A stretch of 64,000 nt of DNA from Deltaproteobacteria bacterium ADurb.Bin207 (GTDB lineage: Bacteria > Myxococcota_A > Polyangia > Polyangiales > Polyangiaceae): NCBI GenBank assembly GCA_002070115.1, contig MWCO01000028.1:1-64000 (forward strand). The letters are read 5' to 3'. Position numbers and translations under genes: made by a program. The notes beneath the pieces were generated by a model. That model was not told where the DNA came from, searched no databases, and saw nothing but the letters and a program-made list of their open reading frames with translations. Positions 25,930-40,459 of this stretch are shown here, in pieces (positions within the stretch are counted from its first letter, which is position 1; every line of letters begins with the position of its first letter).

Positions 25930-27252
25930 ATGGCTCGCGTCGACCGGCTTCATATCGGTATTTTTGGAAGAATCAACGCTGGCAAGAGCACCCTCATGAA
26001 CGTGCTCACGCAGCAGCAGACCTCGATTGTGGACCCAACCCCCGGCACCACTGCCGATATCAAAGCCGCGGTGATGGAAATTCATTCCCTCGGCCCGGTC
26101 AAAATCCTCGATACCGCCGGACTTGACGAAGGCAACGTGCTTGGGGCCAAAAAACGCGACAAAACCTTGTCTGCCCTCGAACAAGTCGATATCGCCGTGC
26201 TCGTCGTAGACCCCGTACAAACCTTGCAATCGGGGGACTTGACCATCGAAGAGCAAGTCGCCAACACCAGCCGTCGACTCGGCCAAAGCCTCGTGATGCT
26301 CTGCAATCTGCACGCGGACCACGAGAGTCGATTGCAGGCATGCGGAGCGACCCTCGAACAAGCCCTGGACCATTGCAAAAGTGCGTTGCCCGATCGCGCC
26401 GGAACGCCCTTTTTGGTGACGGACTTGACGCAACGAGGCGCGCTCGAAGCGGTGATAGAACTTTTGGGAAAAGGGCGTCCGAGCCCTCAAAAGCCCGTGC
26501 AGCTACTACCTTTTGTCGGGGGTTCGGCTCCCGTTCTGCTTCATATTCCGTTGGATGAGGAGTCACCGAGTCATCGGTTGCTTCGACCGCAAGAGATGGC
26601 CATCGAAGCGCTGCTGCGTCTGCGTGTCCCGGTGGCGGTGACCCGTGTTGATCTGAAACTCGCACGCACGGGAAACGCCTTGATGCAAACTCGAGAAAAA
26701 GACAAATTTCTTAGATTTTTCAATATGTTAGGTGGAGAAGGGGGAGTCCAGCTCGTGCTGACCGACTCGCAGGCCATCGACCTGATGCATGCGTGGCTAC
26801 CGGCGCTGGTACCTTTGACGACGTTTTCGGTCATGATGATTCACCAGAGTTGCGGTGGAGATCTTGCGCTTTTTGCCGAAGGGACACGGGTGTTGGGTAC
26901 GCTACGGCCTGGGGATCGGGTGCTCATTGCGGAGGCCTGCAATCACGACCGCATGGCAGAGGATATCGGCACGGTACAGATCCCGAAAAAGCTTGAACAG
27001 CGCATTCCGGGAATTCACATCGACCATGCATTCGGAAGGGAATTCCCCGATCCGCAAAACCTGCGTGCCTATCGGCTCGTCATTCATTGCGGCGGTTGCA
27101 TGATTAGCAAACAGCAAGCGTCAGCCCGGATTTCCCGTCTTGTGGAAGCGACAGTTCCGGTATCCAATTATGGATTGACCCTGGCCTGGCTCGAAAGCGC
27201 GACAGCCCTCGAGCGCGTGCTTCGTCCGTGGCTCCCCAACTCCTCGAAATAA
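25930..27252 (+). CDS. hydF: [FeFe]-hydrogenase H-cluster maturation GTPase HydF
   Basis: The 440-residue protein has the three HydF domains. The N-terminal GTPase shows G1 GRINAGKS (residues 13-20), G2 Thr in PGTTADIK, and G3 DTAGLD. A dimerisation domain follows. The C-terminal cluster domain carries CNH and, about fifty residues later, HCGGC, matching the HydF Fe-S ligand pattern. HydF is the scaffold on which HydE and HydG assemble the diiron subcluster before transfer to apo-hydrogenase. The G4 region reads NLHAD instead of NKxD, so nucleotide specificity may differ. It lies 61 nt after the amidase gene and 117 nt before the large fusion gene. The reading as HydF, rather than another Era-like GTPase, is secure. 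Confidence 0.92.
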   Translation: MARVDRLHIGIFGRINAGKSTLMNVLTQQQTSIVDPTPGTTADIKAAVMEIHSLGPVKILDTAGLDEGNVLGAKKRDKTLSALEQVDIAVLVVDPVQTLQSGDLTIEEQVANTSRRLGQSLVMLCNLHADHESRLQACGATLEQALDHCKSALPDRAGTPFLVTDLTQRGALEAVIELLGKGRPSPQKPVQLLPFVGGSAPVLLHIPLDEESPSHRLLRPQEMAIEALLRLRVPVAVTRVDLKLARTGNALMQTREKDKFLRFFNMLGGEGGVQLVLTDSQAIDLMHAWLPALVPLTTFSVMMIHQSCGGDLALFAEGTRVLGTLRPGDRVLIAEACNHDRMAEDIGTVQIPKKLEQRIPGIHIDHAFGREFPDPQNLRAYRLVIHCGGCMISKQQASARISRLVEATVPVSNYGLTLAWLESATALERVLRPWLPNSSK

Positions 27253-27369
27253 CAGGGAAAACCTGGCATCCCGGCCAATGCACCGCCCTTCGCGTGCTTT
27301 TCGCGCCCCCACTCAGCGCCTATCCGATATCCCATTGACTTTCCTTTCACCATGGCTTTCCCTTGATTC

Positions 27370-30300
27370 ATGCCGCAAACCTTTCCGGATACGCTGGAAG
27401 CCTGGACCCAGGACCCCTGCCCCCCACGAGCCCTCGACGTATTGACCGTCGCGGAACAAACGATAGGAAGTGCCGCCCAGCAGCAAGAAATCTGGCACCA
27501 CTTTCTCGATATCACACGTCTTTCGGCATTTCTTTCCGCGCTGCCGGACCGGGAGCATCGCAACCGATGGGCAGAAATATGCTTGCAAGCTCTCGATTCT
27601 ACCCATTTCACGTTGGAAACCCTGCTCGACCAACGCACGAGGCGCCATCCGGACCGGATTCTCTTCCAAGAAAGGGATGCCAGCCAATCGTCCGGTTGGT
27701 CTTACGCGCAAGTACGTCGCCGAGCCCGTCGAATCGCAGCCGGACTGCTCGCGCTCACGGACACCCCCCGCGTCGCCATTTTCGCCGATAATGGTGTGGA
27801 TTCTGCCTGTACGGACCTTGCCTGTCTCGCGTACGATATCCTCGATACGCCCCTGAACGTCCACTTCGATACGGCAACACTTACGAATATCACGGAACGG
27901 CTCGCCATCAATATCGTGGTGACGGACTCGGACAGCCATTATGCCCGTTGGCTCGAAGTCCGTCAGGCCACGAAGCTGCCATTTCGGATTCTGCGCACGG
28001 ACAATGCTTCGTCTCTCGAACCGCAGGATACATCCCTTGGTGCGATTTATGCCCCCCTGGGGGAAGAAGAGGTCGAGGACAGGTTGAGCCATCGCAAGCG
28101 TTTAGGGTGGAAAGAGGCGGCGACGGTGATGTTTACGTCGGGCAGCACGGGCGAGGCCAAGGGCCTTGTGTTTTCCCAGCGCAACTTGGTTTCCAAACGT
28201 TTTGCACGGGCCGCCGCCTTGCCCGCGGTCGATGAACAGGAAGTCCTATTATGTTATCTTCCGCTCTTTCACACGTTTGGCCGCTACCTCGAGATGCTGG
28301 GCATGCTGTTTTGGGGCGGTACGTATTGTTTTGCGGGAAATCCTTCCGCGGAAACTCTGCTGACACTGCTGCAAAAAGTTCGACCCACGGGATTGATATC
28401 GATTCCCCTTCGTTGGACCCAAATCCATGACCATTGCCTATCGAGCATGAACAAATCTCCGGGGGTTCCCGCGCGTACGACCTTCGAAACCGAGACGGGG
28501 GGGCGGCTTCGGTGGGGGCTGTCGGCCGCGGGGCGTCTCGATCCCAAGGTATTCCGTTTCTTTCATAAAATGGGGGTCGAGCTATGCTCGGGGTTTGGAA
28601 TGACGGAAGCCACGGGGGGGATCACGATGACGCCTCCTGGCGAGTATCGCGATGGTTCCGTAGGGATTCCCCTGCCTCTGATGCGGACTCGCATCAACGA
28701 TATCGGTGAATTGCATATTGGCGGTCCGTATGTGGCTCATTACTTGGGAGATCCGCCGGAGGGCGAAGACCCATGGATTGCGACGGGGGATTTGTTCATG
28801 CCGCAGGCCGACGGGCACTTGGAGATCGTGGATCGGATCAAGGATATTTATAAAAACAGCCGAGGGCAGACGATCGCGCCGGGAAGGGTGGAGCAGAAAT
28901 TCGCGGATGTACCTGGAATCAAACGAGTTTTTTTGGTTGGGGACGGCCGGGATTACAACGCCTTGCTCATCGTTCCGGACCTTTCGGACCCCATCATGAA
29001 CAACTTCGAACCGTCGCCGATCGACGATCCCGACGCTCCGATACGCACTTATTATCGTCAAATCGTGAGCGCGGCCAACAAGGATCTGGCTCCTTACGAG
29101 CGTGTGGTCAACTTCACCCTGGTGGAACGGGACTTCTCCGCGGACCAGGGAGAACTCACCGCCAAAGGAACGTATCGTCGTAAAACCATCCAGGAGAACT
29201 TCGCTCCCGCGATTCGCGAATTATATCGTAAACGTTTCGTGGAATTGCGTGTACGGCAATGGTCCATTCGCATTCCACGCTGGTTTTTCCGTGACTTGAC
29301 CGAATTGGAGACGGATATCGTGGCGGACGATCTGGGGCTGTGCGACGAGCCTTCGGGACGGCGCCTGGACATGCAAGAAGGCTCGGAACCGGGCAGTGTG
29401 CGCATCGGAGATCTGGAATATGCCTTTGATACGAATATCATCGACCTGGGGCAATTGGCTCGTCAGCCCTTTTTGTGGGTTTCCAATGCTGCCTTGGTCG
29501 CTTTTGCCCCGTGCAAGGATGGGTGGGACGTCACTCTCGACGGGGTTTCGCCGCGGGTGTTGTTGCCCTGGAAAGCCCCTGTCCTCACGGAAAAAGAAGC
29601 AGGATTGGAACGCGTGCCTCCCTCGTTGCGCCTGCTCGAGGTCCATCGTGTAAGTCTCGATGCCCTCTATGGTCGAGGACAGACAGCTCTTGAAGCGGCC
29701 AAAGAACTCAGCCGTATGCTCGAAAGCATCGACCCTCGGACCGGCGAGCTGGTCCGTCGGCGATTGGAAGCCCTGGCGCGGCATCCGGACTTGGAAGTGC
29801 GCTGTCATGCCTATCAATCTCTGTTATTGTCCCTTCGGGTGCCCACCTATGATTCGATGCTCCGATCGTTCGTCCAGGCAGGATTGAAGTTTTTGAACGA
29901 GGAGACCATCGAGATCATCGCGCAGGAAAAGCCCGAGCGCAGGCGTCTCGAAGCGTTCCGGCAGCGTTTGCACGGGTATCGTTCCCAGCTTCCCTGGCCG
30001 GCCCCTGACGATACACGAAGCGTATTTATTGATGTTTTCAAGCTTTTGGCCAGTCTGGCTCGGTATCATCCGGAATTCTATGGCGCCGTGCGAGAAGAAC
30101 TCGTTGCGTGGATCATGCATGAGCCGGCCCCTAAGCTCGCTGCGGCGGCAGAGCGAGAATTGCATGCGCTGGCCGCTCGTTTCGAGCAGTCCCTGACGGG
30201 GTCCTGTGCGGATCCGGCGAGTTGGCAGGGTCGCATTGTGTTTCAGGATGGCCTCCATGCCGAAGAGGCGGCGCAACTGCAGCGCATCATCGTGGGAACC

Positions 30301-31986
30301 AGTTTTCTCAAACAAGCCATCATGCTGTCCACCGATGAAGAAACATGCGATATCGAGCGAATCGTTCCCGATGGTATTTGGGTATCCCGAATTTCCACGT
30401 TGCACCAGCATGCCTCGTACCGCGTAAGTATCAATACGGATACGGGAAAGCATTACGATCTTCAGATTGTCATTCCCAAGGATATCAGTCATGAGCATGT
30501 GCTTCGGACGATCTATTGGATCATTGGGATTCGTGGATATCCCTTTGGGCAGCCGGTATTGCCGAAATTCGGGTGTTGGAGACCGGAGTTAGGGGCTCTG
30601 GCGCTTGCTTACGTCAGTGATTTGACGGTCTGGGAGCGGATACGGGCGTTTGCGAGTTTTCGGATACCCGGTACGGAATATCCTCCCCCCGAGGCGTGGA
30701 GAAAGCTGTTTGTCCGCGCGATGGCAGCGTTTTTCGCGGGTTGGCGAGCGAGTGGTCGTCGCATCGTTCCCGGCGCCATCAATCCTTCCAACGTGGCGGT
30801 TCCGGGACCGGATTTCCAGGAGGGGACGCAGATTCTATCCCTTACGGATTGGAAACCCTACGATGGGCCGAAGACCCTCGTGGCTCCCCTGGTGCGCAAC
30901 TTTTACGTACAAACCGTCAGTCATTATCCCTGGTGCGCCAAACATCTCGATCCGGATTGGATCCTGCAGGCCTGCATCGAAGCCATCGGAGAAGAAGAAG
31001 GAACCAATTTTTTGCGAGAATTGGATATCGTGATGGGCAGCGAAAAGATTCCAGGGGCGGGCATTCCCTGGCATGACCGGATCGAGCCGTTTTTGTCGAG
31101 ATTGCAGACCCATCCGTTCGTTCCATTGGCCGTATCCTGCGCCGAACAGCGTTACCATAAGTGGCAACGGGAGAATCCGGATGCGACGAGCACGGCCAAA
31201 GAGCAATGCGTGTTGGCGGTACAAGCGCTTTATGGTTTCGAGCGCTTTCCGGCCTGGGTTCGTTTTCACCTCTATGCGCAAACCTACTTTGCGACATTTG
31301 GCAAGGAAGTCCAGGATACCTTTCAGCGGCTCATCCAAGAGATGGCGCGCAATCCGGGACGCGACGCCACCTCGTTGATTGAGGTTTCCGACTTGCAGGC
31401 CTGGCTCGAGAGCCCGGAAGATCGCGCTGTTTTCAACCGAGCGGTATTCCCCAAAACCCAGCCCACACAACCACTCGAATTTCTCGCGGTCCGCCATGGC
31501 GAGCAACAAAAGGTGATCCTTCAAACGAAAGTATTCGATGTCGATTCCGTACCCTATTGCGTCCGTGAACCCCTCGAACCGTCAGAAGTCGGTAAACTCT
31601 ATCGCCACTATGTCACGGCCGGATTTCATAAAACCATCTCGACCCAGGACCATTATCTCGTCTTGCTCAACGAGACGGAACAGATCGTAGGAGGGCTATC
31701 GTATCGACGCATGGACGACGATGTCGTGCATCTCGATGGGATCGTGGTATCCGGCTATTTGCGGGGACGAGGGCTCAATGGGGCCATGTTGGAGGATTTT
31801 TGCGCAAGAATGGTGAATGAAGGCACGAAGGTAATTCGAACCCACTTCTTCGTTCGGCACTTCTACATGCAGCGCGGTTTCCGTATCGATCGTCGATACG
31901 GTGGACTCGTGAGATTTCTCACGAATGAATCCACTCCCGAGCATCCTCCCTCCTCGATGGTGCTCCCGCACCTGCTCGGCGATTGA
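27370..31986 (+). CDS. Acyl-adenylase / helical / kinase-like / GNAT fusion protein
   Basis: A 1538-residue protein. Residues ~75-640 form an AMP-dependent acyl-CoA synthetase domain: TSGSTGEAKG (256-265), CSGFGMTEATGG (~406-417), a GDLF motif and DRIKDIYKNSRGQ near 490-505, with the late core Lys region GTYRRKTI. Residues ~640-1020 look helical and HEAT-like. Residues ~1020-1330 include INPSNVAV and LSLTDWKPY, which resemble the catalytic and metal-binding loops of aminoglycoside-phosphotransferase-like kinases but lack the usual HxD and DFG residues. The C-terminal ~120 residues are a GNAT acyltransferase (GIVVSGYLRGRGLNGAML, then FYMQRGF). An activator plus acetyltransferase suggests acyl or acetyl modification of a protein or metabolite. 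Its place between hydF and the sensor operon suggests a link to that system; function unknown. Confidence 0.65.
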   Translation: MPQTFPDTLEAWTQDPCPPRALDVLTVAEQTIGSAAQQQEIWHHFLDITRLSAFLSALPDREHRNRWAEICLQALDSTHFTLETLLDQRTRRHPDRILFQERDASQSSGWSYAQVRRRARRIAAGLLALTDTPRVAIFADNGVDSACTDLACLAYDILDTPLNVHFDTATLTNITERLAINIVVTDSDSHYARWLEVRQATKLPFRILRTDNASSLEPQDTSLGAIYAPLGEEEVEDRLSHRKRLGWKEAATVMFTSGSTGEAKGLVFSQRNLVSKRFARAAALPAVDEQEVLLCYLPLFHTFGRYLEMLGMLFWGGTYCFAGNPSAETLLTLLQKVRPTGLISIPLRWTQIHDHCLSSMNKSPGVPARTTFETETGGRLRWGLSAAGRLDPKVFRFFHKMGVELCSGFGMTEATGGITMTPPGEYRDGSVGIPLPLMRTRINDIGELHIGGPYVAHYLGDPPEGEDPWIATGDLFMPQADGHLEIVDRIKDIYKNSRGQTIAPGRVEQKFADVPGIKRVFLVGDGRDYNALLIVPDLSDPIMNNFEPSPIDDPDAPIRTYYRQIVSAANKDLAPYERVVNFTLVERDFSADQGELTAKGTYRRKTIQENFAPAIRELYRKRFVELRVRQWSIRIPRWFFRDLTELETDIVADDLGLCDEPSGRRLDMQEGSEPGSVRIGDLEYAFDTNIIDLGQLARQPFLWVSNAALVAFAPCKDGWDVTLDGVSPRVLLPWKAPVLTEKEAGLERVPPSLRLLEVHRVSLDALYGRGQTALEAAKELSRMLESIDPRTGELVRRRLEALARHPDLEVRCHAYQSLLLSLRVPTYDSMLRSFVQAGLKFLNEETIEIIAQEKPERRRLEAFRQRLHGYRSQLPWPAPDDTRSVFIDVFKLLASLARYHPEFYGAVREELVAWIMHEPAPKLAAAAERELHALAARFEQSLTGSCADPASWQGRIVFQDGLHAEEAAQLQRIIVGTSFLKQAIMLSTDEETCDIERIVPDGIWVSRISTLHQHASYRVSINTDTGKHYDLQIVIPKDISHEHVLRTIYWIIGIRGYPFGQPVLPKFGCWRPELGALALAYVSDLTVWERIRAFASFRIPGTEYPPPEAWRKLFVRAMAAFFAGWRASGRRIVPGAINPSNVAVPGPDFQEGTQILSLTDWKPYDGPKTLVAPLVRNFYVQTVSHYPWCAKHLDPDWILQACIEAIGEEEGTNFLRELDIVMGSEKIPGAGIPWHDRIEPFLSRLQTHPFVPLAVSCAEQRYHKWQRENPDATSTAKEQCVLAVQALYGFERFPAWVRFHLYAQTYFATFGKEVQDTFQRLIQEMARNPGRDATSLIEVSDLQAWLESPEDRAVFNRAVFPKTQPTQPLEFLAVRHGEQQKVILQTKVFDVDSVPYCVREPLEPSEVGKLYRHYVTAGFHKTISTQDHYLVLLNETEQIVGGLSYRRMDDDVVHLDGIVVSGYLRGRGLNGAMLEDFCARMVNEGTKVIRTHFFVRHFYMQRGFRIDRRYGGLVRFLTNESTPEHPPSSMVLPHLLGD

Positions 31987-32058
31987 ACCCAAATCTCTGT
32001 CATGTTTTTTTGGACATTCGTTTCACAGAACCCTTGAGCCGAGGCGCGCTCATCCATC

Positions 32059-32086
32059 TTGACAGACTAGGGTGCCGTGGTAGGTT
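32059..32086 (+). promoter_or_regulatory. Candidate sigma70-type promoter of the sensory hydrogenase operon
   Basis: A perfect TTGACA (32059-32064) and a weak TAGGTT (32081-32086) lie 16 nt apart in the 180-bp gap before the receiver gene. The spacing is acceptable but the -10 is poor. No palindrome matching the Rex consensus (TTGTGAA-N4-TTCACAA) was seen beside it. Confidence 0.3.
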
Positions 32087-32166
32087 CCGAGATATGGTGA
32101 GCAACATCACGAATTAGAGGCTCGCCCCTACATAGATCCCGAAACCTGCCCGCGCGGAGTGCTCCC

Positions 32167-32574
32167 ATGGCAGAAACAACAATCCTGCTGGTCGATGACG
32201 ACGATGATCTGCTCGAAGTCAACCGTCTCGCCCTCGAAGCGGCCGGCTTCGGTGTGCTTATCGCCCACCATAGTGCCGAAGCTTTGGCTATCGTCCAACA
32301 GCACACGATCCACGGCATCGTTCTCGATGTCATGATGCAAACCCGTGACGAGGGATTTCATCTCGCGCGGGTATTGCGCAAAACACCCCAGACGCGCAAT
32401 GTGCCTATTCTGATGCTCACCGGCGTGAACGCGGAAAGCGCGCGCCAGGGCCATCCGCTGCGTTTGTCCGACGATGACCGAGACGAGATGTGGCTTCCCG
32501 TGGACCGGTTCCTGGACAAGCCCGTCTCTCCCGAGCGTTTGATCGCCATGTTGCGCGAGCTTTTGGGAGAATGA
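32167..32574 (+). CDS. Single-domain response regulator
   Basis: The 135-residue protein is one receiver domain with no output domain. The acidic cluster LVDDDDD, phospho-acceptor Asp54 in IVLDVMM, the switch Thr in LMLTGV and Lys in FLDKPV are all present, so it should be phosphorylated. An unusual ~20-residue insertion rich in Arg/Asp lies between the switch and the Lys. It is the first gene of a compact operon: the Rex gene follows after 1 nt. Likely partner kinases are the hydrogenase-kinase and REC-PAS-kinase proteins encoded downstream; it may shuttle phosphate between them, like a Spo0F or CheY. Confidence 0.9.
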   Translation: MAETTILLVDDDDDLLEVNRLALEAAGFGVLIAHHSAEALAIVQQHTIHGIVLDVMMQTRDEGFHLARVLRKTPQTRNVPILMLTGVNAESARQGHPLRLSDDDRDEMWLPVDRFLDKPVSPERLIAMLRELLGE

Positions 32575-32575
32575 A

Positions 32576-33310
32576 ATGAGCAAAAAGCCGGGACCCCATC
32601 GCCCCAGCGCTCATGGTCAGCGCGTGCAGGAATCTTCCGTGCCCTTGCCGCGTCCGCTTCTCGTCAGGCTTGCGGCCTACCACCAAATTGCGACTCAGCA
32701 TGGCGAGGAGGGAAATACAACGATCCGCTCGGGGCATATGGCCGCGCTTTTGAATATCGACCCGACCCTCGTGCGCAAAGACATGGCTGCGCTCGGGATC
32801 ACCGGAAGGCCGAAAGTGGGATATCCGATTGGCACCTTGCTGCCCTGTCTCGACCGTATCTTGGGTTTGACGGAACGAAAATCCGCCATTCTCATTGGTT
32901 GTGGCGACCTCGGCAGTGCTCTCGCCCGCTATGGGGGTTTTTCGAGATACGGCCTGCAAATCTCCGCTCTATTCGATATCGACCAAAATAAGATGGGAAA
33001 AACCATCGCCGGCCTCACCGTCCAACCCATGGAAAAATGTCGTCGCTACATCGAGATTTTTTCCATACAAATCGCGATCTTGACCGCCCCCAGCCCCCAG
33101 GCGCAAGACATCGCCGATTGGCTCGTCGCCCGGGATATCAAAGCGATTTGGAATTTCGCCCCCGTTCACCTCAAAGCCCCCCCGAATGTCGTGGTGCGCA
33201 ATGAAAACTTAGCGCTTGGACTTGCCCAGCTCCTGCACCAAATCAAGCGCTCGAAAACCACCGCCCCTGCGGCCGAACACGACGCCTTGCGCCGCCGCGA
33301 AAGTGCTTGA
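32576..33310 (+). CDS. rex: Redox-sensing transcriptional repressor Rex
   Basis: The 244-residue protein has the Rex layout. The N-terminal winged helix includes RLAAYHQIA, the segment SGHMAALLNIDPTLVRKDMA, and GRPKVGYPIGTL. A Rossmann NADH-binding domain follows, with ILIGCGDLGSAL, and then a C-terminal swapped helix. Rex senses the NADH/NAD+ ratio and leaves DNA when NADH is high, derepressing fermentative and hydrogenase genes. Encoded 1 nt after the receiver gene and 1 nt before the sensory hydrogenase gene, it couples redox state to this operon. The C-terminal tail beyond ~225 is Lys/Arg/Glu-rich and not conserved in the family. Confidence 0.92.
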   Translation: MSKKPGPHRPSAHGQRVQESSVPLPRPLLVRLAAYHQIATQHGEEGNTTIRSGHMAALLNIDPTLVRKDMAALGITGRPKVGYPIGTLLPCLDRILGLTERKSAILIGCGDLGSALARYGGFSRYGLQISALFDIDQNKMGKTIAGLTVQPMEKCRRYIEIFSIQIAILTAPSPQAQDIADWLVARDIKAIWNFAPVHLKAPPNVVVRNENLALGLAQLLHQIKRSKTTAPAAEHDALRRRESA

Positions 33311-33311
33311 C

Positions 33312-35393
33312 ATGGAAAGCGGACCCATCATTGACACGCTGCAAGACCTTTGCAAACGTTGTTATTCCTGTGTCCGTCGTTGTCCCGCCAAAGCCATTCG
33401 CGTGCAAAACGGCCAAGCCGAGGTCATTGAACAGCGCTGCATCGGTTGCGGTCGATGTGTCCATGCTTGCTCTCAAGGAGCCAAACGGGTCGCCAGCCAA
33501 TTGACTCACGTCGAACAGTTGTGCCGTCGGGGGCAGACCGTGCTCATGTTGGCCCCCTCGTTTCCAGCGGCCTTCGAAACCTGGTCCGCGCACCAAGTGA
33601 TCGCGGCGGCTCGGCAAGCCGGATTTGCCGGCGTGTATGACGTAGCCTTCGGGGCTGATCTCGTAGCGCGCCACCATCGGCAAAGATACGAACGGGAGCC
33701 CGGTCGTCCCATCATCACCTCGGCTTGCCCAGCGGCTTGCGCTTTTATCCAAAAATACGCCGTCGAACTCGTTCCCTTTCTGGCACCCGTCCTATCTCCC
33801 ATGGCTGCCATGGGAAAAGCGCTAAAGACAATCGTGCAACCGGGCTGCTACACGGTATTCGTAGGGCCTTGCTCCGCCAAAATCCGAGAAATCAGAGATC
33901 TGGACGTCGCCCCTTGGGTCGACGCTGTCCTCACGTTTCCGGAACTTGCCGCGTTATTCGAAAGACGTTCCATCGATCCCCGAGTTTTGCCCGAACAGGA
34001 CTTCGACCCTCCCTTTGCCGGCCTCGGCGGCATTTTTCCCATTCCCGGTGGGCTCGCCCGAGCGGCGGAATTGCCCTCGGATTTGCTCGAAAACCACGTT
34101 TTTCAGCTCTCCGGAATCGATGAATTCGTCGATGGAATCGAAAGAATGCGCGAACGAGCCACCTGTGGGGTCCTGCTCGAACAAGAAACCCGGCTTTTCG
34201 ATGTCCTGTTTTGCAAAGGTTGCGTCGCCGGTCCCCTCATGCCTTCCCGAGGAAGCTTGCTCGTACGCAAAGAAAAAGTCGTTGCCTTCATGCGCTCGTA
34301 CACCGGCCGACCTCCCTCGCTCGACAGTGCGACCATGCGGTCGTTGCTGGAAATGGATATTTCAAGATCCTTCGACCCGGACAACCAGCGACGGCAGGAG
34401 CCGACGGAAGAGCAGATTCGAGAGATTCTCGCACAAACGGGTAAATACAATCCGCAAGACGAACTCAATTGCCGGGCTTGTGGTTACCGTTCCTGCCGGG
34501 AGAAGGCCGTAGCGGTGTATCATGGTGTGGCCGAAGTGGATATGTGTTTGCCCTTTTTGGTCGAAAAACTCGTGGCGACGATCGGGCAGCTCAACCGTTC
34601 CCATGAGGAATTGACGGAGGCCCATGCCCAGGTGGTTCGGGTGGAAAAACTCGCTTCCATGGGACAATTGGCAGCGGGAATCGCCCACGAGGTCAACAAT
34701 CCTTTGGGTTCCATCCTCCTTTATTCGCACCTTTTGCGTGAGTCCCTCGAGGGGAGCATACCCCCGAATATCGAACAAGTGCGTAACGATATCGACATGA
34801 TATTACAAGAGGCCACGCGCTGCCGGGGCATCGTGGGGGGACTGCTCGACTTCGCCCGACAATCCAAGGTTTCTCGGGCCCCAGTGCTGCTTTCGGACCT
34901 CATCGACGATACCATACGGGTCAGTCGGACGTTCGCGAGCAGTCAGGACTTGCGGCTCGAAAACCGTAGCCCCGCGGGATTGCCTTTGGCGAACGTCGAT
35001 CGGGACCAACTTCTTCAAGTGTTGACCAACATGGTACGCAATGCTTGTGAGGTGATGCCCGACGGGGGAACGATTTGGCTTCGTGCGGATTGGATTTCGG
35101 AGCGGAATGAATTTCGGATCATCGTGCATGACGACGGCCCTGGGATTCCCGAACAACACATGAATAAACTATTTACGCCCTTTTTTACGACGAAGGGCGT
35201 GGGAAAGGGTACGGGACTCGGCCTTGCCATCTCTTATGGGATTGTGAAGATGCATCGAGGAAGCATTACGGCAAAGAAAAACCTGGATGGTCCGGGGGCA
35301 ACGTTCGAGATCACCCTTCCTGCCGTTCATTCCCAAGCCAATGGCAACGGCAATGGACTTTTGGGCGCGGATACTGCGGGGCAAGCACCATGA
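33312..35393 (+). CDS. Sensory [FeFe]-hydrogenase domain fused to a histidine kinase
   Basis: A 693-residue fusion. Residues ~10-60 hold two 4Fe-4S ferredoxin motifs (CKRCYSCVRRCP and CIGCGRCVHAC). Residues ~75-345 form an H-cluster domain: L1 TSACP (Ala138, Cys139), L2 GPCSAK (Cys187), L3 FCKGCVAGP (Cys301, Cys304). L1 has Ala where catalytic enzymes have the proton-relay Cys, as in sensory (HydS, group D) hydrogenases. Residues ~385-412 add a 4Fe-4S domain (NCRACGYRSC...MC). The rest is a HisKA kinase: His459 in IAHEVNNP, N-box NMVRNACEVMP, G-boxes DDGPGIP and GTGLGLAI. Probably an H2- or redox-responsive kinase, cytosolic as no membrane helix is seen. Start 1 nt after rex; the stop overlaps the next gene. 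Confidence 0.9.
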   Translation: MESGPIIDTLQDLCKRCYSCVRRCPAKAIRVQNGQAEVIEQRCIGCGRCVHACSQGAKRVASQLTHVEQLCRRGQTVLMLAPSFPAAFETWSAHQVIAAARQAGFAGVYDVAFGADLVARHHRQRYEREPGRPIITSACPAACAFIQKYAVELVPFLAPVLSPMAAMGKALKTIVQPGCYTVFVGPCSAKIREIRDLDVAPWVDAVLTFPELAALFERRSIDPRVLPEQDFDPPFAGLGGIFPIPGGLARAAELPSDLLENHVFQLSGIDEFVDGIERMRERATCGVLLEQETRLFDVLFCKGCVAGPLMPSRGSLLVRKEKVVAFMRSYTGRPPSLDSATMRSLLEMDISRSFDPDNQRRQEPTEEQIREILAQTGKYNPQDELNCRACGYRSCREKAVAVYHGVAEVDMCLPFLVEKLVATIGQLNRSHEELTEAHAQVVRVEKLASMGQLAAGIAHEVNNPLGSILLYSHLLRESLEGSIPPNIEQVRNDIDMILQEATRCRGIVGGLLDFARQSKVSRAPVLLSDLIDDTIRVSRTFASSQDLRLENRSPAGLPLANVDRDQLLQVLTNMVRNACEVMPDGGTIWLRADWISERNEFRIIVHDDGPGIPEQHMNKLFTPFFTTKGVGKGTGLGLAISYGIVKMHRGSITAKKNLDGPGATFEITLPAVHSQANGNGNGLLGADTAGQAP

Positions 35394-36958
35394 CAGACCT
35401 TCTTTCGACCCCGGCGGAGTCACCCGCGGCAGAACCCGAACGTCCTACGATTCTCGTGGTGGACGATGAAATCGGCTTTCGAGAGGGGCTTCGACGGATC
35501 CTGGGCCATCGTGGTTATCGGGTAGAAACCGCTTCCGATGGGCAAGAAGCCTTGGACCTGGCGAGCCAACGCGCGTTTGGATTGGCTCTGGTCGACCTGA
35601 AAATGCCGGGAATCGACGGGTTCGAAGTGATCGAACGCCTGCAAACGATCAGCCCGCAAACCGTTTGTATCGTGGTTTCGGCGTTTGCCACGGTCGAATC
35701 CGCTGTCCAATCCACGAAAAAAGGAGCTTTCGATTTCGTGGTCAAGCCTTTCACGCCCGACGACCTGATGGTGGTGCTGCTTCGGGCGGAGGAACGTTGG
35801 CGCTTGATGACGGAAGCGGAGCGTTTGCGACAAGAGAGAGATAGCCATCTACTTGAAATTGCAACAGAAAAAGGTCGTCTCCGCACGATCATCGACTCGA
35901 TGGCCGATGGAATCATGGTGGTGAACATCGACACGAATATCGTGTTGGACAACCCGGAAGCACGGCGGCTTCTCGGGCGTGTATCGATGTCCCGTCTCGA
36001 GGGCCAGGTGGCGGATTACTTCGAGGACGAGGCGTTGGTACAAGAGATTCGGGCGATGTTGACACGGGGAGACGCTCTTCCCGTCACCCGCGAGACCAAG
36101 CTTTCCACACCGGGTCCGGAGCAGCCAGACCGCTATTTACGCGCCACGCTCGCGCCCATCACCGAAGGCCCCCCTGACACCCCTCCGCTCGGTGTGGTGG
36201 TCATTCTGACCGACGTGACCCAGGACAAAGCGTTTGAGCGGATGAAAAACCTCTTCGTTTCCATGGTGGCCCATGAACTCAAAGCGCCCATCGGCGCTGT
36301 GGAATCTTACTTGGAATTGATTCGCATGGGAGCCCTCGATGGCGACCCCGCTCGCATCAAAGCCGTCGCAGAACGCTGCCTATTGCGAACCCGCTCGCTG
36401 CTCGACCTGATTCGAGACCTGACCGAAATGACCCGTCGGGAAGGAGGATTTCTCGAGCGCCGCTTGCAGCGCATCGATGTATCGGCCTTCGTCGCCGAAA
36501 TTGTCGAATTCCAATCCGCGCAAGCCGCTTCCCGAAACATCACCTTGCATTTCGAGGCGCCGAAAACGCCTCCGATCCTCGTGGCAGACCGCGGCGATAT
36601 CGAGCGAATCATCACGAACTTATTGTCCAACGCCATCAAATACAATTTGCCCAACGGGCGTGTGGACGTTCGACTTGGGACATCCAGCGGAACGATCGTC
36701 CTCGAAGTCACGGATACCGGGGTCGGAATGTCCCCGGAAGATGTCGCTCGTTTGGGGGAAGAGTTTTTCAGAGCCAAAAACGCCCACACCCGTACCGTCA
36801 CGGGAACGGGCCTCGGCATCGCGTTGGTGAAACGGGTCGTCGATAGCTACCACGGCGCTCTCGAGGTCGACAGTGCTCTGGGCAAAGGCAGCACGTTTCG
36901 CGTCATTTTGCCGGCGGCCCCCTCGGCATCGATCACAACGAAAGGAGGTTCCGTATGA
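35390..36958 (+). CDS. REC-PAS-histidine kinase hybrid
   Basis: The 522-residue protein begins with a receiver (residues ~17-130; LVVDDE, acceptor Asp in LVDLKMP, VKPF). A short coiled linker leads to a PAS domain (~165-285, with IIDSMADGIMVVN and VVVILTDVT). A HisKA domain has the His in MVAHELKAPIG, and the HATPase domain ends with NLLSNAIKYN, DTGVGM and GTGLGIAL. No membrane segment is visible, so it is cytosolic. It overlaps the hydrogenase-kinase gene (ATGA) and hydG (ATGA). The N-terminal receiver may accept phosphate from the upstream kinase and gate the second kinase, so a phosphorelay is plausible. Confidence 0.9.
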   Translation: MTDLLSTPAESPAAEPERPTILVVDDEIGFREGLRRILGHRGYRVETASDGQEALDLASQRAFGLALVDLKMPGIDGFEVIERLQTISPQTVCIVVSAFATVESAVQSTKKGAFDFVVKPFTPDDLMVVLLRAEERWRLMTEAERLRQERDSHLLEIATEKGRLRTIIDSMADGIMVVNIDTNIVLDNPEARRLLGRVSMSRLEGQVADYFEDEALVQEIRAMLTRGDALPVTRETKLSTPGPEQPDRYLRATLAPITEGPPDTPPLGVVVILTDVTQDKAFERMKNLFVSMVAHELKAPIGAVESYLELIRMGALDGDPARIKAVAERCLLRTRSLLDLIRDLTEMTRREGGFLERRLQRIDVSAFVAEIVEFQSAQAASRNITLHFEAPKTPPILVADRGDIERIITNLLSNAIKYNLPNGRVDVRLGTSSGTIVLEVTDTGVGMSPEDVARLGEEFFRAKNAHTRTVTGTGLGIALVKRVVDSYHGALEVDSALGKGSTFRVILPAAPSASITTKGGSV

Positions 36959-38415
36959 ACCTTCCGGACTCAAAACAACAATCCAACAAGGCAGAGCCCG
37001 TACAAGCTCAACCCATGCCAACGACAGCCATGGCGCCTGATAAAGTCATTGTCGACGAAGCGCGAATCGCCCATACCCTATCGAGTTGTGGCGGCTCCGA
37101 TCCCGTGCATATCCGCGAAATCATCGCCAAAGCCAAAGAGTTGCGGGGGCTCGACCTCGAAGATACCGCTGCGCTTCTCACCTGCGATGACCCAGCCCTG
37201 CTCGAAGAAATCTTTGCGGCCGCCAGCTATGTCAAAGACGCCATCTACGGGCGCAGGGTCGTGCTCTTTGCCCCTCTTTACTATTCCAGCACATGCGTAA
37301 ACAATTGTTTATATTGCGGTTTTCGCAGAGACGCCAAGCGTTCGCGTCGCACCCTTTCCCTCGAAGAGGTGGCGCGGGAGGTGGGCGCGCTCGAACGAGA
37401 AGGACATCGGCGATTGTTAGTGATTGGCGGTGAAACCCCCGGCCCCAAAGCGATCGGTCGTTTGATGGACGTCATTCGCACCGTGTACGAGACGCGAGAT
37501 GGGGGTGAGATACGACGTGTCAATGTGGAAACGGCGCCGATGACGATCGAGGAGTTTCGGCAGCTCGCCCAGGCGCGTATCGGCACCTACGTGGTATTTC
37601 AAGAGACCTATCATCGGGCCACCTACAAGGCCATGCATCCCGATGGGCCCAAAGCGGATTACGATTGGCGGATCGAAGTCATGGATCGGGCCATGCGCGC
37701 GGGAATCGAAGATGTCGGCATCGGCGTGCTGTACGGCCTGTACGATTATCGCTTCGACACGCTTGCGCTGCTCGAGCATGCGCGTCATCTCGAAACGGTC
37801 CACGGCACGGGGCCGCATACGATTTCCGTACCTCGGGTGGAACCCACGCCCGATGCTCCTCTTTCCCTCGCTCCCCCCGCTGCTCTTACCGACCTCGACC
37901 TTTGCAAAGTCGTGGCGATTCTCCGTCTTTCCGTCCCTTACACCGGAATCATCCTATCGACCCGGGAGCCTCCGCAATTGCGGGACAAGCTGCTGGACCT
38001 TGGTGTCTCACAAATGAGTGCCGGTTCCTGTACCGAACCCGGGGGGTATGCCGGCGAACATGATTCCGCGAGCCAATTTCCTGTCGCGGATACGCGCTCG
38101 TTGGACGACGTGATTCGCTCCATTGCCCATCATGGCTATTTGCCAAGCTTTTGCACGGGCTGCTATCGCAAGGGAAGAACCGGGGCGGACTTCATGGAGC
38201 TTGCCAAGCCGGGTCTCATCCGCATGCATTGCCTGCCCAATGCCTTGTTCACGTATCTCGAATACCTCATGGATTATGCGTCCGAGGCAACGCGACAAGT
38301 CGGTCTCGACCTCATCGAAACCCAGGTCGAGCATGAAGTGCCTCCCGCTCGACGCAACACGGTGCGCAAGATGATTGAGAGGATTCGAGCGGGGGAAAGA
38401 GACCTATATCTATAA
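36955..38415 (+). CDS. hydG: [FeFe]-hydrogenase H-cluster radical SAM maturase HydG
   Basis: The 486-residue enzyme cleaves tyrosine to make CO and cyanide for the H-cluster. The radical SAM cluster motif CVNNCLYC (Cys114, Cys118, Cys121) fits CX3CX2C. The HydG-specific auxiliary cluster is present as CTGC with a third Cys 22 residues later (Cys400, Cys403, Cys426), exactly the CX2CX22C pattern that separates HydG from ThiH and HydE. The RVNVETAPM and FQETYHR segments also match. It overlaps the upstream kinase gene by 4 nt (ATGA) after an AGGAGG. HydE is not in the window, so it must be encoded elsewhere or be replaced. Confidence 0.95.
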   Translation: MNLPDSKQQSNKAEPVQAQPMPTTAMAPDKVIVDEARIAHTLSSCGGSDPVHIREIIAKAKELRGLDLEDTAALLTCDDPALLEEIFAAASYVKDAIYGRRVVLFAPLYYSSTCVNNCLYCGFRRDAKRSRRTLSLEEVAREVGALEREGHRRLLVIGGETPGPKAIGRLMDVIRTVYETRDGGEIRRVNVETAPMTIEEFRQLAQARIGTYVVFQETYHRATYKAMHPDGPKADYDWRIEVMDRAMRAGIEDVGIGVLYGLYDYRFDTLALLEHARHLETVHGTGPHTISVPRVEPTPDAPLSLAPPAALTDLDLCKVVAILRLSVPYTGIILSTREPPQLRDKLLDLGVSQMSAGSCTEPGGYAGEHDSASQFPVADTRSLDDVIRSIAHHGYLPSFCTGCYRKGRTGADFMELAKPGLIRMHCLPNALFTYLEYLMDYASEATRQVGLDLIETQVEHEVPPARRNTVRKMIERIRAGERDLYL

Positions 38416-38605: not shown

Positions 38606-40459
38606 ATGGAGCCTGACGTGCGAACCGGTCACTTGCTCATGCTGGCGGCGTTGTCATCGATTCCCATCGGTTGCATAGGGGACTCGTTTTCATCGGAAGA
38701 ACCTGGCCCCATTTCTTCACCTGACGCTTCTTCGGATGGTTCCGACGCTTCTTCGGATGGTTCCGACGCTTCTTCGGATGGTTCCGACGCTTCTTCGGAT
38801 GGTTCCGACGCTTCTTCCGACGCCGTTACCGAGCGTGAACCCGACGTTCCTATCGACAGTATGCCGGAGGATGGGAGCGACGAAACCGATCAAGGCGGGA
38901 ATGAAGCGGGGAAAACGGCGACTGGCGCCGCGTGTAACGAGGACGACGAGTGTGAAACCAACATGTGTCAGGACGGCGTATGTTGTGAATCCGTCTGCGA
39001 TCCCTGTTTTTCCTGTGGACAGCCAGGTCACGAGGGGCAGTGCTTCGCTGTCCCCGACGGAGAAAACCACAACGAGGCGTGTGGACCGGCTGGTTCACCA
39101 TGCATGGGAGTTTGTGATGGCTCCGGTCATTGTACTTATCCGGTGGGAGCCAATTGCGATGACCCCCATTGCGACAGCGACCCGTGGAAACAAGTTTTGT
39201 TTCAATGCAATGCCGAGGGACTCTGCGAGGAACAAATCGTTTCTTGCTCCCCGTTCCTATGCAAACAAGCCGAATGCTTGAGCAAGTGCGACGACTCCGA
39301 CGATTGCGAGGATGACGCGTATTGTGCCTCGTCGGAATGTGTTCCGAAGCTTGTCTTCGGACAGACGTGTACTCAAAACGTCGAATGCCTTTCGTCCCAT
39401 TGCGCCGATGGTGTTTGCTGCAACGACTCATGCAGCGGAGTCTGTGAAACCTGTGCATTCGCAGGCAAGGAGGGACAGTGTGTGGCTGTCCCATTGGACA
39501 TGGATCCCGACGACGAGTGTCAGGGGGATGGATCGACATGCGCGGGAACGTGCAGTGGTCAGCGTTCTTGCGTTTTTCCTGTCCACGGCGAGCCCTGCGG
39601 GGAATCCCAATGCGATGCGAACCTGAACGCTGCCCATGAACTGATTTGCAATGGCGAGGGGAAATGTGTCGAGAACGTACAAAACTGCGGGTTGTACGAT
39701 TGTCATAAGGACATCGGGTCTTGTCTTTATAGCTGTAGTCAGGATCAGGACTGCATCGACGATGCGTTTTGTAATAACGACGTCTGCGTTGCCAAAAAAT
39801 CGAATGCCTCGCCTTGCGAGAATAGCATCGAGTGTTTGAGCGGATACTGCGAGCCCACCAGCCACGGGAAGCAGTGTTGCAACACGGCCTGTCCGCATCC
39901 CTTGAACTGCTCGACTGGCGAATGTTTGTGTGACACTGTCGTCTGCAGTCCCGGTGTGAATTGCGTCCCATGGTATCGCGATCGCGATGGCGACACCTTC
40001 GGCAACCCCAACGAGATGAAGTTGGGTTGTGAGAATGCGCCACCGAATATCCCCGGGGAGAAATACGTCCGGAACATGGATGATTGCTTTGATTTGAACC
40101 ATCTCGCGCGACCGGGTCAAACCGCCTTTTTCCCAGAACACCGTGGTGATGGCAGCTTCGACTATGATTGCGATGGCAAAGAAACGAAGCAGTTCGACGA
40201 CACGAATGACCCCGTCTGCAAGGATTGTAAAACCTACTCGAAATGCCTGTATTGCGGGATCTTTTCGTATAATACGTACGGTTATCGATGCAAAACGCCA
40301 ACGTCATCGGACAACACTTGTGGTCCGTTGGTTACGCAAAGTTACAAGCAATTGCGGCCCTGCGGACAATCGGGAACTCTGTATCGGTGCAACAACGACG
40401 ACAAACTGTGCGACACTGCTGAGGTGCCCACTCACGACGTCGTTCAACAATGCCGATGA
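38606..40459 (+). CDS. Large Cys-rich lipoprotein with Asp/Ser repeat stalk
   Basis: The 617-residue protein has a lipoprotein signal (LLMLAALSSIPIGC, lipobox PIGC) near residue 23. Starts at ATG 38606 or GTG 38618 are both possible. A stalk of four 7-residue repeats (DASSDGS) follows. From residue ~110 there are dozens of cysteines in repeating ~90-residue modules (CETNMCQDGVCC, HCADGVCCNDSC, SGYCEP...CC), the fold of myxobacterial surface proteins of the TIL/Dickkopf-like kind. It is probably displayed outside the cell and heavily disulphide-bonded. The stop overlaps the next start, so the three following genes may form one unit. Function unknown. Confidence 0.75.
   Translation: MEPDVRTGHLLMLAALSSIPIGCIGDSFSSEEPGPISSPDASSDGSDASSDGSDASSDGSDASSDGSDASSDAVTEREPDVPIDSMPEDGSDETDQGGNEAGKTATGAACNEDDECETNMCQDGVCCESVCDPCFSCGQPGHEGQCFAVPDGENHNEACGPAGSPCMGVCDGSGHCTYPVGANCDDPHCDSDPWKQVLFQCNAEGLCEEQIVSCSPFLCKQAECLSKCDDSDDCEDDAYCASSECVPKLVFGQTCTQNVECLSSHCADGVCCNDSCSGVCETCAFAGKEGQCVAVPLDMDPDDECQGDGSTCAGTCSGQRSCVFPVHGEPCGESQCDANLNAAHELICNGEGKCVENVQNCGLYDCHKDIGSCLYSCSQDQDCIDDAFCNNDVCVAKKSNASPCENSIECLSGYCEPTSHGKQCCNTACPHPLNCSTGECLCDTVVCSPGVNCVPWYRDRDGDTFGNPNEMKLGCENAPPNIPGEKYVRNMDDCFDLNHLARPGQTAFFPEHRGDGSFDYDCDGKETKQFDDTNDPVCKDCKTYSKCLYCGIFSYNTYGYRCKTPTSSDNTCGPLVTQSYKQLRPCGQSGTLYRCNNDDKLCDTAEVPTHDVVQQCR
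38723..38806 (+). repeat. 4 x 21-bp tandem repeat encoding DASSDGS
   Basis: Four perfect 21-bp units followed by a 10-12 bp partial copy, inside the stalk of the Cys-rich lipoprotein. Identity between copies points to recent expansion and likely length variation between strains. Confidence 0.9.

Follow-up and report, generated by a model that had tools for sequence, protein, structure and literature searches.

Positions 32167-38415 likely hold a Rex-controlled sensory operon derived from an [FeFe] hydrogenase operon. This is the best explanation of the block as a whole, and it draws on the observed gene content, H-cluster ligands, homology, gene order, operator enrichment and receiver kinship. 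The block lies in a stretch of 64,000 nucleotides (the window), which is nearly all of contig C28 in a genome of 6.55 Mb (G000; 220 contigs, 97% complete, contamination estimate 4.4%) from Deltaproteobacteria bacterium ADurb.Bin207. Statements about the whole genome come from profile and pattern searches.

Genes of the block and their transcription units

The genes and candidate regulatory elements are as follows.

25930..27252, plus strand: hydF, [FeFe] hydrogenase maturation GTPase (TIGR03918, HydF_tetramer/dimer domains)
27370-31986: 1538-aa fusion of an AMP-binding ligase (AMP-forming), about 750 aa without a Pfam family, and GNAT
31907..31924, unstranded: Rex-like operator, perfect palindrome TCGTGAGATTTCTCACGA, within the fusion gene at its 3' end, some 240 nt 5' of the receiver start codon
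32059..32064, plus strand: TTGACA, possible -35 element of the receiver-Rex-sensor-HydG operon
32095..32112, unstranded: Rex-like operator TGGTGAGCAACATCACGA, 54 nt 5' of the receiver start codon
32167..32574, plus strand: stand-alone receiver (REC; PF00072), with phospho-acceptor Asp, Thr and Lys present
32576..33310, plus strand: Rex, NADH/NAD+-sensing repressor (NCBIfam Rex 215 bits, above cut-off; PF06971, Put_DNA-bind_N; PF02629, CoA_binding)
33312..35393, plus strand: HydS-histidine kinase, the sensor (PF02906 142 bits, PF04060, PF00512, PF02518)
35390..36958, plus strand: REC-PAS-histidine kinase, downstream partner of the sensor (PF00072, PAS, HisKA, HATPase)
36955..38415, plus strand: hydG, radical SAM maturase (TIGR03955 502 bits, above cut-off)

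All seven genes are long open reading frames with strong profile matches and are not chance; the matches confirm the positions and families assigned to them by an earlier, sequence-only reading of the window. HydF scores 293 bits, under the curated TIGR03918 cut-off of 325.6, but it carries the CxH...HCxxC cluster motif and a full set of domains (GTPase, dimerisation, cluster). Both the winged-helix N-terminus and the Rossmann NAD(H) domain were detected in Rex, and the HydG translation shows CX3CX2C and a C-terminal cluster motif. The open reading frame of the sensor opens with a TTG at 33216, has its likely start at the ATG at 33312 and ends at 35393. It encodes, in order, a ferredoxin-type 2x[4Fe-4S] domain, Fe_hyd_lg_C, an FeS motif (Cx2Cx4Cx16C), a long helix, HisKA and HATPase. 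Just 3' of hydG, positions 38606-40459 encode a Cys-rich protein that looks secreted or like a lipoprotein and repeats the unit DASSDGS.

The last five genes had been described as overlapping or at most 1 nt apart, and from receiver through Rex, sensor and REC-PAS-kinase to HydG we indeed count a 1-nt gap twice and a 4-nt overlap twice. This spacing supports co-transcription of the sensor with Rex, with which it had been proposed to work. Longer gaps separate HydF from the fusion (117 nt) and the fusion from the receiver (180 nt). Operon limits are based here on gene spacing and conservation: the five genes from receiver to HydG (32167-38415) are a probable single operon with two Rex-like operators upstream. 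Scans for sigma-70 promoters and terminators gave results no better than chance. The TTGACA at 32059..32064 has the same hexamer 5' of the operator in the closest relative, G216, and it was missed by the sigma-70 consensus scan, making it a weak candidate.

The proposal that all seven genes form one unit finds no support in the comparison with relatives. hydF is probably a separate transcription unit that serves all H-cluster proteins in the cell; in G216 it lies on another contig and does not adjoin the five-gene block. The fusion also looks like a separate unit. Its middle region occurs in 7 of 318 class genomes, some of them without hydrogenase genes. The hyd loci of relatives, whether from the class or from many phyla, all lack it, and on that ground the fusion was rejected as a member of the module.

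An H-cluster domain joined to a histidine kinase

Judged from its domain make-up set against the HydDB descriptions, the sensor belongs to the [FeFe] hydrogenases of group C1, which are linked to histidine kinases and putatively sensory. Domains and motifs bear out the earlier description of the window's H-cluster protein as a kinase-linked sensory type. PF02906, PF00512 and PF02518 occur in a single protein of about 693-725 aa, with two [4Fe-4S] motifs at its N-terminus. It retains the L2 Lys and all four H-cluster ligand Cys, the latter kept in 104-105 of 105 relatives (A1 alignment), while positions C299, M353 and M497 (CpI numbering) are A, G and L. The C-terminal motif Cx2Cx4Cx16C is exact in all 105 HydS-kinase sequences aligned. 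The ligand Cys, the three replacements and the C-terminal cluster fit the published description of group C. A catalytic group A HydA was rejected as the identity of the sensor, whose motifs read TSACPA, VGPCSAK and DVLFCKGC against the required TSC[CS]P, MPCxAKK and ExMxCPGGC.

In a model of 463 residues (pLDDT 88), with a HydABC-type hydrogenase as its best PDB match, the last element is a helix (residues 413-462), which heads straight towards HisKA with no PAS domain. We know of no experiment showing H2 sensing by any histidine kinase-linked sensor. HydDB defines group C1 by its link to a histidine kinase, calls its sensing role "putative" and describes its genes as usually co-operonic with a group A hydrogenase (PMC5037454). 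The window protein shares with this group an H-domain, N-terminal 2x[4Fe-4S], the C-terminal cluster motif and HisKA-HATPase in one protein, but it has no hydCBA in cis, and Rex, a receiver and HydG stand in its operon. TmHydS and TamHydS, both putatively sensory (PMC10055695, PMC8163306), likewise keep the ligand Cys, have C299, M353 and M497 replaced and carry Cx2Cx4Cx16C. TmHydS ends with a PAS domain and TamHydS without one, whereas in the window sensor the cluster leads through the helix directly to the histidine kinase.

H-domain proteins with Cys motifs that adjoin an ATPase-like gene were also seen at L079 (G010:C122), L080 (G039:C103) and L078 (G215:C77); the L2 Lys is gone in L080 and L078 (TPCPVE, TPCSAI). 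In G010 and G039 (94-97% complete) neither HydE nor HydG was found above threshold, so that these H-domain proteins may carry only a [4Fe-4S] cluster.

Catalytic hydrogenases in the genome and gene order in relatives

The profile search of the genome returned five strong matches to Fe_hyd_lg_C and one weak one. Canonical catalytic HydA proteins, with intact L1/L2/L3 motifs (TSC[CS]P / MPC[TS]AKK / E[VF]M[ACST]CPGGC), are encoded at C17:20371 (TSCSPAW, IMPCTAKK, EVMSCPGGC), C45:25541 (TSCSPGW, LMPCSAKK, EFMACPGGC) and C121:8432 (TSCCPAW, IMPCTAKK, EVMTCPGGC). NuoF/NuoE-like partners, as in electron-bifurcating enzymes, accompany HydA on C17 and C45, PFOR lies about 3 kb downstream of the C45 operon, and the HydA on C121 is preceded by a GltD-like gene. 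hydE is present at C57:29373 (317 bits, above cut-off). The HydG of the window is the only one in the genome, and its HydF is the only convincing one. With catalytic HydA present, these maturases must therefore serve the catalytic hydrogenases as well as the sensor, as does HydE.

The sequence-only reading had inferred a self-contained H2/redox phosphorelay for which HydF and HydG are kept without any catalytic [FeFe] hydrogenase. The window does lack a second Fe_hyd_lg_C gene and hydE, and to that extent the statements "no catalytic hydrogenase" and "HydE is missing" hold for the window only. The genome search that the reading had called for found both beyond it, and the catalytic operon and hydE just outside the window that it had named as counter-evidence exist in substance, on other contigs. 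Set against three catalytic HydA with intact motifs, HydE and a single-copy HydG, we give the self-contained phosphorelay next to no credence: it could stand for this genome only if C17, C45, C121 and C57 were contaminants without exception. With the contamination estimate at 4.4%, that is unlikely, and the Rex/sensor/kinase sets of C17 and the window are homologous.

A further H-domain operon, group D-like, runs off the contig end on C48. This locus (L024, 7699-13233) encodes a group D-like HydS-ATPase fusion, DRTGG-like and PHP-like proteins, an ATPase, HydC and HydB; its H-domain has no L2 Lys (VACPAQQ).

An H-domain gene occurs in 39 of the 318 class genomes, and the sensor query has a match in 36. 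The usual operon in these relatives reads Rex-HydC-HydB-HydA-REC-HydS-kinase-REC-PAS-kinase-HydG-AspA-HydF, sometimes with HydE, and many phyla share one operon, Rex-HydCBA-(REC)-HydS-kinase-REC-PAS-kinase-(HydG-AspA-HydF-HydE); the AspA-HydF association was already known. Across 80 named sensor loci from many phyla, HydA is nearby in 67, REC-PAS-kinase in 72, Rex in 31 and HydG in 20. Where the flank reaches at least 6 kb on each side (32 loci), HydA is nearby in 31. The window block is this widespread [FeFe] hydrogenase operon, rearranged, with hydCBA not in cis. The operons at L060, L066, L069, L073, L104 and L164 have the same protein families in largely the same order, but the window lacks hydC, hydB, hydA, aspA and hydE in cis. 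The C17 operon of the same genome (L020) encodes homologous Rex, receivers, HydS-kinase and REC-PAS-kinase; unlike the window it has hydCBA and no hydG, and its sensor sits on another branch of the tree.

The five genes recur as an identical block in G216, a genome from a different genus in the family, 3 kb from a convergent GltD-HydA-REC; its sensor is 58% identical to that of the window. L069, L073, L067 and L136 also have runs of Rex-HydS-kinase-HydG that no complete hydCBA interrupts; at L069 and L073, hydCBA follows farther downstream. In the sensor tree the window and G216 join L096 and L165 (support 100/99), and no member of this clade has a directly adjacent HydA. No HydA was found upstream at L096 and L165 as far as their sequence extends. 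All checked genomes of the clade, including those of L096 and L165, encode a catalytic HydA elsewhere.

The genome G088 (95% complete; L067 on G088:C16, and G088:C35) has a HydS-kinase as its sole Fe_hyd_lg_C gene, together with Rex, HydG and HydE. A truncated 81-aa HydC-like ORF adjoins the sensor, and the congener G087 holds a HydA fragment. We dropped G088 as a sensor-only genome in support of the self-contained phosphorelay: it may be a real case, a recent loss or an assembly gap.

Candidate Rex operators, receivers and the path of the signal

No site for the exact Rex consensus TTGTGAANNNNTTCACAA, with up to 3 mismatches allowed, lies before the operon in the window. The deviating palindromes were found by comparing the upstream regions of the window and G216: TGGTGAGCAACATCACGA has a counterpart at the same place in G216 (TCGTGAAAAATATCACGA) and another before Rex on C17 (CTGTGAATATTATCACAG). 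The pattern TSGTGA-N6-TCACSA, in whose design the site at 31907 played no part, has 7 sites in the 6.55 Mb genome, two of them upstream of the window operon. Upstream of the 46 Rex genes in hyd loci, the strict form TGTGA-N6-TCACA occurs in 17 cases and a looser form in 35, where 0.44 and 1.27 would be expected. We infer that Rex binds at 31907-31924 and 32095-32112. The half-sites in the window, TCGTGA and TGGTGA, depart from the Rex consensus. CRP-like proteins favour a similar sequence, and this resemblance to CRP-type sites counts against the Rex reading. In Caldicellulosiruptor bescii, Rex represses the FeFe hydrogenase genes and hydG (PMC6391272). There a Rex operator lies 5' of a hydG unit, the position of the Rex-like sites in the window; that unit has no sensor kinase and its Rex binding has gel shift evidence, whereas Rex control in the window is predicted. 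A palindrome resembling the Rex-like operators of the window (TCGTGAATGGAATCACGA, G000:C9:40417-40434) falls inside a predicted gene and is probably due to chance.

Searched against the whole genome, the window receiver finds, after itself, four receivers beside H-cluster genes (one on C121, two on C17, one on C45), which score 52.6-64.8 bits; the next best scores 38.3. The window operon encodes no DNA-binding response regulator, which counts against our explanation. The kinship of the hyd-linked receivers suggests trans wiring from the window kinases to the catalytic hydrogenases, and signalling in trans would be the most economical wiring, given that the closest kin of the window receiver are those at catalytic loci. 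Control of distant hydrogenase genes, put forward in the sequence-only reading, is plausible. We offer as a tentative proposal, somewhat short of even chances, that the group C1 sub-lineage of the window, G216, L096 and L165 left its cognate hydrogenase and became a trans-acting master sensor. Its signals would go out through a receiver subfamily dedicated to it, with one member next to every catalytic hydrogenase; these receivers may act on the enzyme itself or on how it is expressed, with no DNA-binding regulator involved.

As to signal, phosphotransfer route and direction of control, the H-cluster domain, with its catalytic-rate residues replaced, would sense either H2 or the redox state of the ferredoxin pool. 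Its state would pass to the C-terminal [4Fe-4S] cluster (Cx2Cx4Cx16C) and then along the long helix to the histidine kinase, which may phosphorylate the REC-PAS-kinase, the small receiver or both. Each catalytic HydA gene has a receiver gene of the small receiver's subfamily as its neighbour, which makes the catalytic hydrogenases probable targets of the signal in trans. From the known action of Rex, the operon would be repressed at the two GTGA-N6-TCAC operators until NADH rises, so that sensor and HydG would be made when fermentative H2 evolution is needed. HydG, the nearby HydF and the HydE on C57 would mature the H-clusters of sensor and catalytic hydrogenases alike.

Two other readings touch on parts of this scheme. 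The sensor domain might hold no H-cluster and act as a plain [4Fe-4S] redox sensor for the kinase. Its proton-transfer Cys is missing, and its L3 is CxxC, one residue short of the CxxxC in solved hydrogenases; among 105 aligned histidine kinase-linked sensors, L3 is CxxC in 70 and CxxxC in 34. The CxxC counts against our preferred explanation as well, H-cluster assembly in this subtype being only predicted. With the four ligand Cys and the L2 Lys all retained, HydG in the same operon, and an active H-cluster bound by TmHydS and TamHydS despite similar substitutions (PMC8163306, PMC10055695), we hold a plain [4Fe-4S] sensor to be quite improbable.

The sensor could also be a local autoregulator, controlling with Rex only its own operon and thereby the supply of HydG, while the distant catalytic operons, unconnected to it, would each answer to regulators of their own. 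C17 indeed has a complete set of its own (Rex, HydS-kinase, REC-PAS-kinase), and the enrichment of Rex-like operators is seen 5' of the window's own operon. We find this unlikely: C45 and C121 have a hyd-type receiver and no cognate sensor nearby, their receivers are the closest kin of that in the window, and control of HydG alone would still gate all hydrogenases.

This explanation removes the puzzle of maturases without a hydrogenase and puts in its place a testable wiring scheme, in which a single sensor kinase with an H-cluster, probably controlled by NADH, has its partner receivers beside each of several hydrogenases. The trans arrangement of the sensor sub-lineage and the hyd-linked receiver subfamily appear new, to the extent that we found neither described in the open-licence literature. 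The literature treats what sensory [FeFe] hydrogenases signal to as putative, and the receiver subfamily names specific candidate partners for phosphotransfer.
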